A DNA stretch of 64,000 bases, taken from assembly GCF_013364355.1 (NCBI RefSeq), contig NZ_CP054931.1, positions 4,081,501 to 4,145,500 of the forward strand, in the 5' to 3' direction. The position numbers and the translations under genes were made by a program. The stretch is from Stenotrophomonas sp. NA06056. Its GTDB lineage: Bacteria; Pseudomonadota; Gammaproteobacteria; Xanthomonadales; Xanthomonadaceae. Every line of letters begins with the position of its first letter. Position 1 is the stretch's first letter. Below, in pieces: positions 9,925-58,342 of this stretch. The notes beneath the pieces are model-generated. The model made no database searches. It was not told the origin of the DNA and was given only the letters and a program-made list of their open reading frames with translations.

Positions 9925-10461
9925 ATGCAACCGCGCAAGACCGACCTCGCCCGAACCGCGCTGCAGGCCCACCGCGCGCCGCTGGACATGCGCCAGCGAC
10001 GGCTGCTGATCCTGTGTGATGGCCAGCGCAGCATCGCCGAGCTGACCGCGCTGCTGGGGCAGGATGCGGCGGCGATGGTGATCCAGCTGATCCAGGCCGG
10101 CTACCTGGTGACCGCTGCGGACGCCGTCGGCTCCATGCAACCCGTGCCGATTGCGACAACTGCTCCCCTGGCGCCGCCAGTCTCTGCCACGTCTCCAGCA
10201 CCGGTCGAACGCCGTCGCTCGCTGGTTGCCGCGCGCATCTATGTGCTGGGAATCCTGGAGATGCAGCGGCACCCCAACGCAGCGGCGTTGTTCCGCGACC
10301 TGCAGCAGGCGCGCGCCGAAGGCGAGGTGCTGCAGGTGATGCAATCAGCGCTGCAGGTGCTGCCGACGCTGACCTCGGAAGGCTACTGCCAACGCGTGCG
10401 GCAGCGGCTGATGGAGGCATTGCCGATGGAGCATTGCAGCGCGTTCGCGGCTATCGCCTGA
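9925..10461 (+). CDS. Conserved hypothetical protein with N-terminal winged-helix-like region
   Basis: The 178-residue protein from the ATG at 9925 starts MQPRKTDLARTAL. Residues 15-60 (LDMRQRRLLILCDGQRSIAE then LTALLGQ, MVIQLIQAGYL) look like the small winged-helix unit seen in some regulator and PqqD-like proteins. A Pro/Ala linker and an alpha-helical C-terminal part follow. The frame is open upstream to 9805, but that part would overlap the divergent lipoprotein promoter zone. Function unknown. Confidence 0.6.
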   Translation: MQPRKTDLARTALQAHRAPLDMRQRRLLILCDGQRSIAELTALLGQDAAAMVIQLIQAGYLVTAADAVGSMQPVPIATTAPLAPPVSATSPAPVERRRSLVAARIYVLGILEMQRHPNAAALFRDLQQARAEGEVLQVMQSALQVLPTLTSEGYCQRVRQRLMEALPMEHCSAFAAIA

Positions 10462-10472
10462 TCCGGCGAACA

Positions 10473-10780
10473 GCATCCACGCATGGCGTGGATCTACTGC
10501 ATCACGAACCCGGTTGGATCCACGCCGCGCGCGATATCGCGCTTCCCAGTAGATCCACGCCATGCGTGGATGCGGTATCGCGCCTCCCGGTAGATCCACG
10601 CCATGCGTGGATGCGGTATCGCGCCTCCCGGTAGATCCACGCCATGCGTGGATACGGTATCGCGCCTCCCGGTAGATCCACGCCATGCGTGGATACGGTA
10701 TCGCGCTTCCCAGTAGATCCACGCCATGCGTGGATACGGTATCGCGCTTCCTGGTAGATCCACGCCATGCGTGGATGCGG
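10473..10780. repeat. Tandem SMAG array: six 41-bp units plus flanking copies
   Basis: Six units start at 10549, 10590, 10631, 10672, 10713 and 10754, each exactly 41 bases apart. A unit is a 23-base GTAG-headed palindrome (GTAGATCCACGCC...) plus an 18-base linker (GCGGTATCGCGCCTCCCG with small changes). A decayed unit precedes the first at about 10514, and an inverted copy lies at 10473-10497. Differences between units are limited to TGCGG/TACGG and CCTCCC/CTTCCC. The array ends about 10 bases from the hmgA stop codon. Confidence 0.92.
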
Positions 10781-10784
10781 ACGA

Positions 10785-12083
10785 TCAACGGAAATTGTTG
10801 CGCAGGCCGTTCCAGCACTGCTGGTAATCGCCCTGCCGGTGGCCCGCGGCCAGCGCCTGCGCGGTCGGGCGGATCACCCCACGGGTCTCGAACATGAAGG
10901 CCATGGTGTCCTTGATCACGTCCGGCTTGGACAGGTCTGCACTGGAGGCCTTGTCGAAGGTCGGCGCATCCGGACCGTGGCCACTCATGCAGTTGTGCAA
11001 CGACGCACCGCCCGGCACGAAGCCTTCGGCCTTGGCGTCGTAGGCACCATGCACCAGGCCCATGAACTCGCTGGCGATGTTGCGGTGGAACCACGGCGGG
11101 CGGAACGTGTTCTGCGCCACCAGCCAGCGCGGCGGGAAGATGGCGAAGTCCATGTTGCTGGTGCCCGCGGTGTCGCTGGGCGAGTGCAGCACCAGGAAGA
11201 TCGACGGGTCCGGGTGGTCGTAGCTGATCGAGCCGATGGTGTTGAAGCGGCGCAGGTCGTAGCGGTACGGCGCGTAGTTGCCGTGCCAGGCCACCACGTC
11301 CAGCGGCGAATGATCGATCAGGGCACGCCACAGGCGGCCGTCGAACTTGGCGATCAGCTCGAAATCACCGTCGATGTCTTCGAACGCCGCATGCGGGGTC
11401 TCGAAGTCGCGCGGGTTGGCCAGGCCGTTGGAGCCGATCGGGCCCAGGTCGGGCAGCTTCAGCAGCGCGCCGTAGTTCTCGCAGATGTAGCCACGGCTCG
11501 GGCCGTCGGGCAGCTCCACGCGGAAGCGGACACCACGCGGGATCACCGCGATCTGCTGCGGCTCGATCTCGATCACGCCCAGCTCGGTGAGCAGGCGCAG
11601 GCTGCCCAGCTGCGGCACGATCAGCAGTTCGCCGTCGGCGTCGTAGAAGTAGCGGCCGACCATGTCACGGTTGGCCGCATACAGATGGATGCCGACACCG
11701 GCATGCGCGTCGGGCGAACCGTTGCCGCCCATCGTGTACAGGCCTTCGACAAAATCGGTCGGCAGTTCCGGCAGCGGCAGCGGGCTCCAGCGCAGCTGGT
11801 TCGGCGAGGCCGGCTGCGCACCGAAATCGCACTGCAGCTGCGATTGCGCAAACGGAGTGAACTCGCCGTGGGTCACCGCCGGACGGATCCGGTACAGCCA
11901 GCTGCGGCGGTTGCTGCCACGCGGCGCGGTGAACGCGGTACCGGTCAACTGCTCGGCATACAGGCCATGGGCCACCTTCTGCGGCGAGTTCTGGCCGACG
12001 GGCAGTGCGCCGGCAACGGCCTCGGTGGCGAACTCGTTGCCGAAACCGGACTGATAGCCGCGGGCTGTGATGGCGCTGGACAT
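10785..12083 (-). CDS. hmgA: Homogentisate 1,2-dioxygenase
   Basis: HmgA opens the ring of homogentisate to maleylacetoacetate in tyrosine and phenylalanine catabolism. The 432-residue product reads [20 protein letters not shown] at the start and has the cupin-type iron enzyme features [20 protein letters not shown] and [13 protein letters not shown] near the C-terminus. The ATG at 12083 has AGGAG at good spacing. hppD lies 102 bases upstream on the same strand, so the pair makes two consecutive pathway steps; the next steps are not in the window. The 3' end abuts the SMAG array. Confidence 0.96.
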
Positions 12084-13922: not shown

Positions 13923-14107
13923 GGGGTTTCCGGGGCTGCGCCCCGGGCCCTGCAGAGGCATACGGGCAGGAACCGAGGCAGAAGCGGCCTTCCTGAGGGG
14001 ATGCGGGGTGGTGTCGGATTGCGGAGACGCCGTAAACCCATCCATGGGGGCTTGGCCGCGGCATCCATGCCGCGGACACCCCGCAATCCGACACCACCCC
14101 GCCTTCG
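13923..14107 (+). repeat. Structured 3'-flanking element, copy 1
   Basis: Immediately after the marR stop comes a hairpin GGGGC-TGC-GCCCC (13932-13944). After a spacer comes a perfect 22-bp outer stem, 14003-14024 with 14081-14102. The stem encloses two hairpins, CCCAT-CC-ATGGG (14037-14048) and CCGCGGCAT-CC-ATGCCGCGG (14056-14075), joined by the conserved GACGCCGTAAACCCATCC. The fold is a three-way junction. Two relatives occur at 33651-33840 and 34028-34222 with different outer-stem sequences that still pair. Confidence 0.8.
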
Positions 14108-14440
14108 ACAATTTCCCGCTGCTGTTGGTAGGTGTCGACCTTGGTCGACACATGGATCCCTGCCATGCGCGGATGATGTCGCGGGCTGCGCTGTGGTCGA
14201 TCAGGCGCATGCCATCGATGACCTGCATCGCGTGGTTTTCATGGCCCGCCGACGAACGGTCTTTCGGCCGGGTTCGACTCGATGTGTCGCGATTACCACC
14301 TGATGTTTCGGCATCGGGCCGGTAGAGTCCTGATCGACAGAGCGGCTGTATCGGAATTCGCGCATCGAGTGGCATTGCCTATTGGACGACCGGTTCCATC
14401 GGTCCGAGAGTAGGCGCGCAGCGGAGCACCGCTGCCGGGG
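14108..14440. other. Gene-free stretch with decayed palindromes
   Basis: No gene is convincing here. A GTAG-headed palindrome GTAGGTGTCGACC lies at 14128-14151, followed by a decayed SMAG-like TGGATCCCTGCCATGCGCGG at 14153-14173. Confidence 0.5.
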
Positions 14441-14632
14441 TTGAAAGCCCGATGATCCGAAGGAAACCACGCCGCACCCGTCGCCGCCCATCGCGGGCGG
14501 CGACGACTCGCGCTGCCCCGCTTTGGCGGGCGGTGCGTGGGGCCGCATGGCCGCCGTTCCTCCTTCGGATCACGGTCTTTCAACCACGCATCGCCTGCCG
14601 CCTTTCCGGCGGCCTCGCCACGGAGTTTCGCC
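14441..14632 (+). ncRNA. Structured leader, copy A, upstream of a small ORF
   Basis: A long stem pairs 14441-14464 (TTGAAAG...CCGAAGGA) with 14561-14583, with one mismatch and one bulge. Inside are the hairpin GTCGCCGCCC/GGGCGGCGAC (14480-14504) and the conserved string GGCGGGCGGTGCGTGGGG (14525-14542). After the stem come CCACGCATCG, a hairpin GCCGCC-TTTCC-GGCGGC and CACGGAG, which serves as the ribosome site of the ORF at 14633. The same order with different pairing sequences recurs at 57778-57985. Whether it is an RNA regulator or a mobile DNA element is unknown. Confidence 0.6.
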
Positions 14633-14860
14633 ATGACACGCCGCCATCACCCCGCTACCGAACCCATCGATCGCGAAGCCGACCTGCAGCGCATCGATGA
14701 AGCACTGGCCACGCTGGAAACCGTCACCGAAGCGTGGTTCGAACATCATCGACTGAAGGCCTGCCAGCCAGGCCTGCTGCTGTCGTTGAACCGGCTGCTC
14801 GACCTGACCAGTCTCGCCAAGGGCTATGCCAGTGCGCTGCGGGTGATTGCTGAACCCTGA
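14633..14860 (+). CDS. Small protein of unknown function behind a structured leader
   Basis: The 75-residue product starts MTRRHHPATEPIDREADLQR and is predicted largely helical, with a C-terminal leucine-rich part (GLLLSLNRLLDLTSLAKGYA). No membrane segment or cysteine pair is evident. The ATG follows CACGGAG at 8 bases. In layout it resembles the small helical ORFs that sit behind similar leaders in pseudomonads, as I recall, but I cannot name the family. The DUF1016 nuclease gene starts 20 bases after its stop, so the two are probably co-transcribed. Confidence 0.65.
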   Translation: MTRRHHPATEPIDREADLQRIDEALATLETVTEAWFEHHRLKACQPGLLLSLNRLLDLTSLAKGYASALRVIAEP

Positions 14861-14880
14861 CCCTGCTGGAAGGCACTTTC

Positions 14881-15942
14881 ATGGACCACACACCGCCCCC
14901 CACCTTGCCGCAAACCAACGATCTGCTGGCTGATATCCGCCAATTGATATCCACAGCCCGCGCCGGGATGGTCAGGACCGTCAATGCCGAACTGACACTG
15001 CTCTACTGGCGTATAGGACGTCGCATCCATGTCGATCAGATGGGTGGACGTCGGGCACGCTATGGAGAGGTCCTGTTCAAGCGCATCGCCAGCAAGCTGG
15101 CTGCCGAGTTCGGCGGTTCGTTCGGTGAAAAGAGCCTGCGCAGGATGGTGCAGTTCTCCATCGCGTTTGCCGACGAGCAGATTGTCGTATCACTGCTACG
15201 ACAATTGAGCTGGACCCATTTCATCGCACTGATTCCGCTGTCTGATCCGCTCAAGCGCGACTTCTACGCGCAGATGGCCAGCACCGAAGGCTGGAGTGTC
15301 CGCATGTTGCGTCAGCGCATCGACTCGATGCTGTACGAGCGCACGGCACTGTCCAGCCAGCCGGAACAGACCATTGCCAACGAGCTGTCGGCATTGCGCA
15401 GTAACCAGCAGCTCACGCCGGGTCTGGTCCTGCGCGACCCGTACGTACTGGATTTTCTCGGGCTGAAGGAGTGCTGGGACGAACAGGAACTGGAAGGCGC
15501 CATCCTGCGTGAAATGCAGGGGTTCCTGCTTGAACTCGGAGTGGGATTCAGTTTTGTCGCCCGCCAGAAACGCATCCAGATCGACGACGACGACTTCCAT
15601 CTCGACCTGCTGTTCTACAACCGTCGCCTGCGCAGGCTGGTGGCCGTCGAACTGAAGATCGGTGACTTCAAGCCAGCGTACAAAGGCCAGATGGAGCTCT
15701 ATCTACGTTGGCTGGATCGTTATGAGCGGGAGGAAGGTGAAGAGGCACCGCTGGGCATCATCCTTTGCACGGGCAAGAAGGCGGGCCAGATCGAGTTGCT
15801 GGAGCTGGACCGCTCAGGCATCCACGTGGCGGAGTACCTGACATCCCTTCCCTCCCGGGAAGTTCTCAAGCAACGGCTGCAGGCCGCGACCGAGCGTGCG
15901 CGGCAACGCATGGAACTCACTACGGCAGAGCTCGACCAGTAA
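14881..15942 (+). CDS. DUF1016 (YhcG-like) PD-(D/E)XK nuclease family protein
   Basis: The 353-residue protein has the DUF1016 N-terminal helical domain (residues 15-170; TLLYWRIGRRIH, FGEKSLRRMVQFSIAFAD, SWTHFIALIPLSDPLKRDFY) and the C-terminal nuclease domain. The latter carries FHLDLLFYNRRLRRLVAVEL followed by KIGDFKPAYKGQMELYLRWL, supplying the D...ExK catalytic residues and the conserved glutamine. Family members are common in mobile and defence-linked loci; the cellular role is unsettled. It follows the leader and 75-residue ORF with only 20 bases between, and no restriction or toxin partner is visible nearby. Confidence 0.88.
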   Translation: MDHTPPPTLPQTNDLLADIRQLISTARAGMVRTVNAELTLLYWRIGRRIHVDQMGGRRARYGEVLFKRIASKLAAEFGGSFGEKSLRRMVQFSIAFADEQIVVSLLRQLSWTHFIALIPLSDPLKRDFYAQMASTEGWSVRMLRQRIDSMLYERTALSSQPEQTIANELSALRSNQQLTPGLVLRDPYVLDFLGLKECWDEQELEGAILREMQGFLLELGVGFSFVARQKRIQIDDDDFHLDLLFYNRRLRRLVAVELKIGDFKPAYKGQMELYLRWLDRYEREEGEEAPLGIILCTGKKAGQIELLELDRSGIHVAEYLTSLPSREVLKQRLQAATERARQRMELTTAELDQ

Positions 15943-57355: not shown

Positions 57356-57777
57356 GTACAGTGGTCCTTGTTTTGGCCTGCGCCAGTGGGTGGAATCCGT
57401 TCAAGTACTGCAGAACCTTCCCGTTGTAGGCAGCACAGCCCTGCGTGACTACATCTGTAGTCAGAATGTGCGTGGCGCCCTGTGGGGGTCAATAGGCAGA
57501 AAGTCACTCACGCTTGAACGCGAAGTACGCGGTACCCATCAACCGCCGTCGGACCGATGCTGTCGCATTTGCCGCATCCTGCGTCCCTGCCGGAAGGTTC
57601 TGACGACTCCATTCCAGAAGTGCCGTTTTCCTAGCACAGCAAGGCGCTCGCCCCTTTCCGCGCTATGCCACAATGCCAAAAACGTCTCGGGCTTTGGCGG
57701 CATTGACCCCAACCCCTTGGCTTTCCCAACAACATCAGGCAACTCTGGTAGAGCCACCGACAACGGGTGGCCGGGCG
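57356..57777. other. Gene-free stretch
   Basis: No frame here has a convincing ribosome site or family match. The stretch is less GC-rich than its surroundings and may contain debris of a lost gene, but I see no recognisable motif. Confidence 0.4.
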
Positions 57778-57985
57778 TCGAAAACCCGATTCACTAGACG
57801 TTGTTTACGCTTGCCAGCCGGTGCCGCCACGCGCGGTGCCGGCTGGCAATCCGTCTGCCGGCTATGGCGGGCGGTGCGTGGGGGTCTTGTACCCGCCGGC
57901 ATTGTCTAGTGATCCGGTTTTCGAGCCACGCATCGTCCGCCACCTTTATCGGTGGCGGCTTCTGCCTGCTTGCACGGAGCCTGCC
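57778..57985 (+). ncRNA. Structured leader, copy B, upstream of a small ORF
   Basis: A long stem pairs 57778-57799 (TCGAAAACC...TCACTAGAC) with 57904-57924. Inside are the hairpin TTGCCAGCCGG/CCGGCTGGCAA (57811-57849) and the conserved string GGCGGGCGGTGCGTGGGG (57866-57883). After it come CCACGCATCG, a hairpin CCGCCACC-TTTAT-CGGTGGCGG and GCACGGAG, the ribosome site. Same architecture as copy A at 14441-14632, but the paired sequences differ in a compensating way. Confidence 0.6.
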
Positions 57986-58342
57986 ATGACCACGCCGCAC
58001 TCCCCTCCCCCGCGCCCCATCCAGGAAGCGCCCTCGTCCGCCCCTGCTTTGGACCCCAACAGCCTCATCGCCATCCTGCGCAGCATCGGCGCCGGCGCTG
58101 CGGCCGATGGCCAGCCGTGGCCCGAACGCCATCACCTGCGCAGCCGGCAGATGCAGTTGTCCGACGCCGACTGCGCGTTGACGGGCCAGCGCATCGTGCA
58201 GGAGCTCCTGCTGGCCGCCGAGCGCACGCGCCAGAACGGTGAGCCCGACCAGTACGTGGGCGACCGGGTGATGGAAGGGCTGGTGATGGCCGATATCGCA
58301 CTTACCGCCTTCATCCACGAACGGGTGCGCCCACGGGAGTGA
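57986..58342 (+). CDS. Small protein of unknown function behind a structured leader
   Basis: The 118-residue product starts MTTPHSPPPRPIQEAPSSAP (Pro-rich, disordered), followed by a helical domain (PNSLIAILRSIGAGAAADGQ, CALTGQRIVQELLLAAERTR, RVMEGLVMADIALTAFIHER). No membrane segment. It is unrelated in sequence to the 75-residue ORF behind the other leader. The next gene starts 4 bases after its stop. Confidence 0.65.
   Translation: MTTPHSPPPRPIQEAPSSAPALDPNSLIAILRSIGAGAAADGQPWPERHHLRSRQMQLSDADCALTGQRIVQELLLAAERTRQNGEPDQYVGDRVMEGLVMADIALTAFIHERVRPRE

Follow-up and report, generated by a model that had tools for sequence, protein, structure and literature searches.

The window analysed here, a stretch of 64,000 nucleotides from Stenotrophomonas sp. 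NA06056, contains two structured leaders that precede small open reading frames (ORFs). In the leader at 14441, an a1/b1 target region is followed by a spacer hairpin, a C4 RNA and a 3' hairpin, with a ribosome site and then a small ORF downstream; the leader at 57778 is built likewise (Table 1). The original prediction had described, for the first leader, an internal 10-bp hairpin, a GGCGGGCGGTGCGTGGGG string, a second hairpin, the motif CACGGAG, a 75-residue ORF and, 20 bases further on, a DUF1016 gene; all of these are indeed present in the sequence. It had also proposed a long-range stem of 23 bp. The two arms, 14441-14464 and 14561-14583, do pair, but in three blocks of 7 + 3 + 11 = 21 base pairs, which two small internal interruptions separate, and not as 23 contiguous pairs. 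The upstream arm is made up of a conserved half, TTGAAAG, and a variable half, GATCCGAAGGA, and its strongest partner in the pairing matrix of the own genome is the C4 of the same leader. The second leader, which had been predicted as well, is real. Folding of 14405-14640 and 57752-57990 yielded z values of -6.16 and -7.65, respectively, and in both cases none of 200 shuffled sequences folded as well.

Table 1. Features of the two C4 modules in the window
Feature	Position	Strand	Basis and remarks
a1/b1 target region	14405..14464	+	Rfam c4-a1b1 (RF03163), sub-threshold; pairing arm 14441-14464
Spacer hairpin between a1/b1 and C4	14480..14504 (14480-14489/14495-14504)	+	10 bp; without T-run
C4 antisense RNA	14519..14605	+	RF01695, 53.8 bits; cut-off 45
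3' hairpin	14597..14613 (14597-14602/14608-14613)	+	Predicted fold
Shine-Dalgarno-like CACGGAG	14619..14625	+	Sequence
75-aa small ORF, short variant	14633..14860	+	ORF; no accepted family match
DUF1016/YhcG PD-(D/E)XK nuclease, 353 aa	14881..15942	+	PF17761, PF06250; PADLOC candidate PDC-S02
a1/b1 arm of the second module	57778..57799	+	Sequence; own-genome pairing matrix
C4 RNA in the second module	57860..57947	+	RF01695, 61.4 bits; pairing arm 57904-57924
3' hairpin CCGCCACC/GGTGGCGG	57937..57958	+	Predicted fold; overlaps the C4 3' strand
Small ORF of 118 aa from the C4-linked family	57986..58342	+	Alignments

The search of the window with the Rfam models gave two RNA matches over the cut-off, and both are to the C4 antisense RNA (RF01695). 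The two leaders are chromosomal copies of this RNA. The loop and the 3' segment (14561-14583) of the first C4 are complementary to the a1/b1 of the same leader. Positions 14405-14455 match c4-a1b1 (RF03163) with 26.0 bits, which is below the cut-off of 46.7. With a C4 over the cut-off and this sub-threshold match upstream of it, the long-range stem is complementarity between an antisense RNA and its target. The leader also matches isrK (RF01394) with 19.9 bits, below the cut-off of 50, and it contains no terminator T-run for a short RNA; for the Stenotrophomonas leaders L005 and L002, neither isrK nor c4-a1b1 was found at E ≤ 0.01. C4 of the P1 type is processed by RNase P and has a length of about 77 nt. 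All of 109 modules carry GG on the 5' side and CCRCY on the 3' side of the C4 stem base, which agrees with RNase P processing at the level of the motif, and this count is partly circular because such motifs served to find or place the modules. The leaders do not represent a new RNA class but belong to a known RNA family, C4 with its a1/b1 target, of which both parts have been listed previously (Weinberg et al. 2010, PMC2864571). An upstream a1/b1 complementary to the C4 loops is present in the window modules, as judged from cognate pairing and covariation. An a2/b2 that covers the following ORF's ribosome site, as in P1, was not found in them, and the RF01695 family does not demand it. In the own-genome set, in which downstream pairing equals that of non-cognate combinations, no b2-type complementarity to C4 was detected for the CACGGAG motif.

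Further copies, for which a search had been proposed, are many: 19 matches in the own genome (15 over the cut-off), matches in 39 of the 61 genomes of a genus sample and in 18 of 274 genomes of the class, the host being included in both samples and the class-wide search using stricter filters. Within the genus sample, 7-26 matches were counted in 33 genomes and 1 or 2 in six, and the remaining 22 genomes lack matches. In the class-wide search, the 17 genomes other than the host have 1 to 6. Eighteen of the 19 own-genome matches look like C4, and the remaining one, L019, is an inverted repeat, which was excluded from the energy counts and included in the pairing matrix. At 14003-14103, the window harbours a long inverted repeat whose arms are separated by a short centre; it resembles L019 and may belong to a dispersed repeat family. 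Moreover, a short tandem DNA unit at 10434-11331, perhaps a repetitive palindromic element, is read as repeated ORFs whose translations contain repeats such as STHGVDLPGSAIPYPRMAWIY.

Fourteen of the 18 own-genome C4s are located upstream of members of one ORF family (118-140 aa), and two precede short ORFs of 75 aa (L012, the 14441 module) and 82 aa (L018). L015 and L016 are not followed by an ORF of the small-protein family, and a clear target is also missing in L016. In a second complete genome (G011), all 26 matches exceed the cut-off and the small-ORF family follows 24 of them. L015 and L347 of G011, both C4s without a family ORF, have a1/b1 and loop sequences that are nearly alike in the two genomes. 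C4 modules also occur in close pairs in G011 (762622-763574 and 3782785-3783300), which suggests local duplication. The original prediction had offered two interpretations, a cis-regulatory RNA and a mobile structured DNA. The former has stood up, inasmuch as a selected, structured RNA leader lies ahead of small ORFs. A hairpin element that moves as DNA and carries small ORFs along could account for the many dispersed copies and for the close pairs in G011, but the flanks of one locus are conserved across many genomes and the leaders are members of a known RNA family. With nothing that points to mobile DNA, we consider this explanation very improbable.

Using seven members of the small-protein family as queries, 124 relatives were identified in genome contigs and 11 in viral contigs. 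The best 80 of the 124 genome relatives are all from Stenotrophomonas or '[Pseudomonas] hibiscicola' and show up to 94% identity to the small ORF of the host. These 80 and the 11 from the viral-collection contigs make up the relatives set (n = 91). The 5' strand of a C4, searched with up to 4 mismatches in 16 positions, lies no more than 330 bases upstream of the small ORF in 91 of 91 relatives, and the 3' strand could be located for each of them as well; the module of C4 and small ORF is present in eleven viral-collection contigs. Profile searches gave no accepted match for the family, and the predicted structure of the small protein, which consists of two long helices, gave no informative structural match. 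Neither the 118-aa ORF nor its 321-base leader had a match among 50,697 phage records.

The 75-aa ORF of the first module was found in 8 of 91 genomes of the genus, host included. As judged by eye, the C4 upstream of it is intact in four of the eight genomes, degenerate in one (L147) and absent from three. In the latter three (L145, L146 and L148), an a1/b1-like element is located directly at the ribosome site, and a C4 provided in trans could act there as on a2/b2. The DUF1016/YhcG protein passes the cut-offs of PF17761 (145.3 bits) and PF06250 (156.9 bits) and matches a candidate defence class in PADLOC. Its gene starts within 150 bases after the 75-aa ORF in only 3 of the 8 genomes, host included; it is thus a facultative neighbour, possibly co-transcribed with the small ORF. 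The neighbour of the second module in the window is a different one, so that DUF1016 is no constant partner.

The specificity of the a1/b1-C4 pairing was assessed by comparing the duplex energies of cognate and non-cognate combinations, both for the upstream a1/b1 and for the region downstream. Upstream, the cognate pairs are clearly more stable, with -39.9 versus -28.5 kcal/mol in the own genome (n = 18), -39.0 versus -28.9 kcal/mol among the relatives (n = 53 distinct loops, one row per distinct C4 interior out of 91) and -38.2 versus -29.1 kcal/mol in the second genome (n = 26). The cognate C4 is the best partner in its row in 14/18, 28/53 and 10/26 cases, respectively. In 8 of the 91 relatives, the pairing of the cognate C4 is matched by more than 10% of the non-cognate ones. 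Four of these eight (L080, L100, L105 and L106) have a target that appears by eye to be mismatched or partly lost while the small ORF is kept, which suggests recombination within the spacer hairpin.

The compensatory change that had been noticed between the two copies of the window holds for a far larger number of leaders. For 47 leaders and 16 named pairs, 87.0% of the cells are paired as compared to 73.2% in column shuffles, and 130 double-sided changes contrast with 43.3 in the shuffles. In this set, the duplicate loops (L080, L100, L105, L106 and L119) and seven rows with long loops (L098, L108, L121, L123, L125, L127 and L128) had been removed; since the 16 pairs were picked from this alignment, they are biased towards it. 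When all 12 rows, i.e. the five mismatched or duplicate-loop rows and the seven long-loop rows, were added back (59 leaders), 84.2% versus 70.0% of the cells were paired and 164 versus 60.7 double-sided changes were counted. None of 500 shuffles reached either value in either set. The number of pairs with a double-sided change is 9 versus 7.3 for the 47 leaders, a value that 35 of 500 shuffles reach and that is not extreme, and 12 versus 8.7 for the 59 leaders (1/500). Sliding the partner by 1-3 columns reduced the paired share of the 59 leaders to 20-57%. In the variable helix, six of six pairs show double-sided change, with 67.5% of the cells paired (59 leaders). The covariation that had been demanded of the stem therefore goes beyond shuffles and slides, controls that deal only partly with relatedness.

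A further line of evidence comes from the locus of the 57986 module, which was compared in 17 loci and the window. Thirteen of the loci were placed by both flanks and four by one flank, the match of L072 being on the unexpected side. Eight distinct C4 interiors occur at this position, several of which are unrelated in sequence, and each of them comes with its own a1/b1, i.e. antisense RNA and target are swapped together. Again, cognate pairing (-38.4 kcal/mol) exceeds non-cognate pairing (-29.1 kcal/mol), and the cognate C4 is best in 5 of the 8 rows. The same small set of alleles was observed at this locus in further genomes. When the allele labels were placed on the gene tree, 13 changes were counted for 20 rows, the mean of the shuffles being 11.9; this tree has no well-supported branch, and two of its rows possibly start at a wrong ATG. 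Recombination of alleles at the locus is suggested. Moreover, the a1/b1 is kept and even strengthened in the Stenotrophomonas branch.

The matched swaps and the strong covariation also bear on whether the leaders are decaying prophage remnants or repeats without a present function. Signs of decay do exist: L309 and L147 look degenerate, L303 has no C4 at the matched flank, and in L016 both the family ORF and a clear target are missing. However, besides the covariation and the swaps, the family ORF is retained in 24 of 26 modules of the second genome, and ORF and leader are unmatched in the phage records mentioned above, which makes decay as a general explanation quite improbable.

Another possibility is that the chromosomal C4s serve as immunity or trans-regulatory RNAs that act on mRNAs of phages or on other mRNAs, the a1/b1 being a decoy or a relic. 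C4 belongs to the superinfection immunity system of P1/P7, and the authors of a study on Acinetobacter have proposed phage or host targets (PMC5320573); furthermore, C4s without a family ORF exist (L015, L016 and L347). However, an exact-pattern search of the own genome with the two window modules, out of about 18, retrieved only their own a1/b1 and their own C4, and 57778..57799 is the only exact sense site for the target pattern used. In viral contigs, the patterns of the two modules had 21 and 94 exact matches, which is no more than expected by chance according to a rough estimate with an assumed collection size. In addition, the target in cis keeps pace with the replacement of the loop, unlike a relic. 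We regard this possibility as unlikely.

The downstream region behaves differently from a1/b1. Its pairing energies with cognate and non-cognate C4s are nearly the same in the own genome (-23.8 versus -24.0 kcal/mol, n = 18), in the relatives (-20.2 versus -20.5 kcal/mol, n = 53) and in the second genome (-25.3 versus -24.8 kcal/mol, n = 26). For comparison, C4 loci were collected across the class with a limit of 30, four of which belong to the host; the remaining 26, from 17 further genomes, were combined with P1 (n = 27); the flanks of L277 and L286 are cut by contig ends, and these two loci are counted in n = 27 and are absent from the fold counts. In this set, cognate pairing is stronger both upstream (-32.1 versus -22.8 kcal/mol) and downstream (-28.4 versus -20.3 kcal/mol), i.e. 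the comparison C4s retain the start-site target a2/b2. They also differ in the region 5' of C4, where a run of five T residues occurs within 75 bases in 25 of the 27 loci, but in none of 110 Stenotrophomonas modules and in none of the second genome (n = 26). The Stenotrophomonas branch is without the terminator T-run and without a detected a2/b2. The wider distribution suggests that both have been lost rather than being absent originally.

The comparison leaders give a hint as to what a1/b1 may do. A terminator was called in 24 of the 27 loci, P1 included, mostly at the position that the spacer hairpin occupies in the 14441 leader, and an antiterminator was called in 23 of these 24. In most of these leaders (L270-L295 and L150, which is P1), the terminator and an antiterminator competing with it are situated 5' of C4, at a distance of about 30-100 bases. 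For 22 of 22 called terminators, a1/b1 overlaps the competing antiterminator; the overlap uses generous duplex ends, and the control rate of 0.302 refers to any antiterminator per locus (22 loci). These predicted structures suggest that binding of C4 at a1/b1 would favour termination in the comparison C4s, and they give a1/b1 a testable role as part of an attenuator controlled by an antisense RNA. The CI RNA of phage P4 is described as acting in this manner (PMC4825925). With the start-site target and the terminator missing and a1/b1 alone kept and co-evolving with C4, a1/b1 must act by itself in Stenotrophomonas. These leaders are thus a natural experiment on the role of a1/b1 in C4 modules.

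The a1/b1-C4 pairing and the fold of C4 use the same bases and exclude each other. The long-range stem is part of the predicted minimum fold of 12 of 18 own-genome leaders, 80 of 91 relatives and 15 of 24 comparison loci, but not of P1; since the comparison leaders share it, this fold is not special to the Stenotrophomonas branch. In the first module, the 3' hairpin and the 3' strand of the C4 closing stem share bases, so that these two structures are predicted to be mutually exclusive as well. The region from the Shine-Dalgarno sequence to the AUG is predicted to be more accessible with the C4 3' strand free in 69 of 81 distinct modules. For 19 dissimilar representatives, the difference in accessibility is 0.13 versus 0.07 with shuffled spacers, and 14 of the 19 lie above the control. 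The difference was also obtained for 13 of 24 comparison C4s, and it is reversed for the 14441 copy (L012). A switch in the accessibility of the ribosome site is at most weakly suggested by these models.

Taken together, the leaders are probably two-state antisense leaders of the C4/IsrK type in a derived form that targets itself. The nascent leader would adopt either the long-range state or the C4 state. In the latter, RNase P would cut the C4 stem at its base and thereby release C4, and the free C4 would bind to a1/b1 only if the transcript comes from the same module. Given such restricted binding, each of the about 16 ORF-bearing modules would set the level of its own small protein with little cross-talk. 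The loss of the terminator and of a2/b2 would remove attenuation and the block at the start site, so that output would have to come from the choice of the fold or from processing. Stenotrophomonas leaders would have kept the two-state core and the release by RNase P and dropped the outputs that depend on the short RNA and the start site. A simpler arrangement would be an attenuator or riboswitch-like leader that acts purely in cis, in which no C4 is set free and the C4 fold is just the alternative structure. The long-range stem as the predicted minimum fold of most modules would fit this arrangement, as would the missing T-run and a2/b2. Nevertheless, the partly circular conservation of the GG/CCRCY stem base in all 109 modules speaks for processing, and processed RNAs are known from related systems, namely C4-like RNAs in Acinetobacter (PMC5320573) and, from the Gifsy-1 leader, an RNA some 80 nt long (PMC4825925). 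An exclusively cis-acting leader therefore does not appear likely to us, and we favour the two-state leader that releases C4.

C4 itself has been described previously, as have, for Acinetobacter, multiple C4 copies whose loops vary and whose processing resembles that by RNase P (PMC5320573). In the open-licence literature, we found no report on the C4 family of Stenotrophomonas, its linkage to a small protein, the missing a2/b2 and terminator or the swapping of alleles. It is tempting to speculate, though the chance that this is correct seems rather small, that Stenotrophomonas has turned a phage immunity RNA into some 7-26 insulated, self-recognising switches per genome, each with one lineage-specific paralogue of the small protein, and that their specificity is perhaps under balancing selection. 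Such selection, as in self/non-self recognition or incompatibility systems, is conceivable because few alleles recur and do not follow the gene tree, which is poorly resolved.

Similar arrangements are known from phages and from other bacteria. In the satellite phage P4, the CI RNA with seqA and seqC is likewise a processed leader RNA that pairs upstream and downstream of itself, but it acts by transcription termination, and the likeness is one of description only (PMC4825925). In Acinetobacter baumannii, the C4-like Group 1 sRNAs comprise 21 similar sequences, and C4-like processed RNAs were recognised by their RNA-seq pattern, with RNase P-like processing (PMC5320573). They share with Stenotrophomonas the multiple copies per genome, the variable specificity loop and the apparent processing at the GG base, whereas the accessible part of that study reports neither a linked small-ORF family nor a test of a1/b1 or a2/b2 (PMC5320573).

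The IsrK-orf45-AnrP locus of the prophage Gifsy-1 is a C4 module. Its leader (L351, 34131-34329) matches c4-a1b1 with 48.1, isrK with 79.3 and C4 with 69.0 bits, the three Rfam matches being overlapping or consecutive. Pairing of IsrK with a downstream stretch generates a translationally silent state (Hershko-Shalev et al. 2016, PMC4825925), as was shown for two base pairs of the long-range stem with the help of compensatory mutations, which were tested in reporter fusions and on native gels (PMC4825925). If position +1 is the 5' end of the Rfam isrK match, the mutated bases G28, G31, C159 and C162 are located in a1/b1 and the 3' segment of C4 and have the expected letters; hence, the stem that was tested is the a1/b1-C4 stem. 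The short IsrK acts in trans, and the downstream RNA STnc1160, of about 80 nt, is processed from the readthrough transcript (PMC4825925); by its position, STnc1160 would be the C4. The authors raised the possibility that STnc1160 modulates the IsrK terminator and also reported a co-expression result against it (PMC4825925). The terms 'antisense C4', 'phage P1' and 'Citron' are absent from the main text of that report (PMC4825925), and the C4 and IsrK literatures can now be joined. The energies of the Gifsy-1 module give a mixed picture: upstream, they amount to -31.9 kcal/mol versus a non-cognate mean of -26.7 and a best non-cognate value of -38.6, and downstream to -30.4 versus a mean of -22.1 and a best value of -32.8. 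The plan of the leader is the same as in Stenotrophomonas, and the long-range stem has been established experimentally as one of two exclusive folds (PMC4825925). However, Gifsy-1 keeps the terminator, and hence the short IsrK that acts in trans, as well as the match at the start site. Following the Gifsy-1 precedent, the long-range state would be the OFF state in Stenotrophomonas, whereas the accessibility calculation leans weakly towards the opposite direction.

A further close counterpart is the C4 of the phages P1 and P7, which is part of their superinfection immunity system (PMC5320573). The P1 record lists a1, b1, C4, a2, b2 and icd in this order, with b2 just before the start of icd and a1/b1 annotated as 'putative'. 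The Stenotrophomonas leaders have in common with P1/P7 a C4 sequence and fold over the cut-off, a variable specificity segment, an upstream a1/b1 and a small ORF downstream (icd in P1). They differ from P1/P7 in that no a2/b2 was detected at the ribosome site and no T-run separates a1/b1 from C4, and in that their C4s are chromosomal, exist as many paralogues and precede a different small protein.
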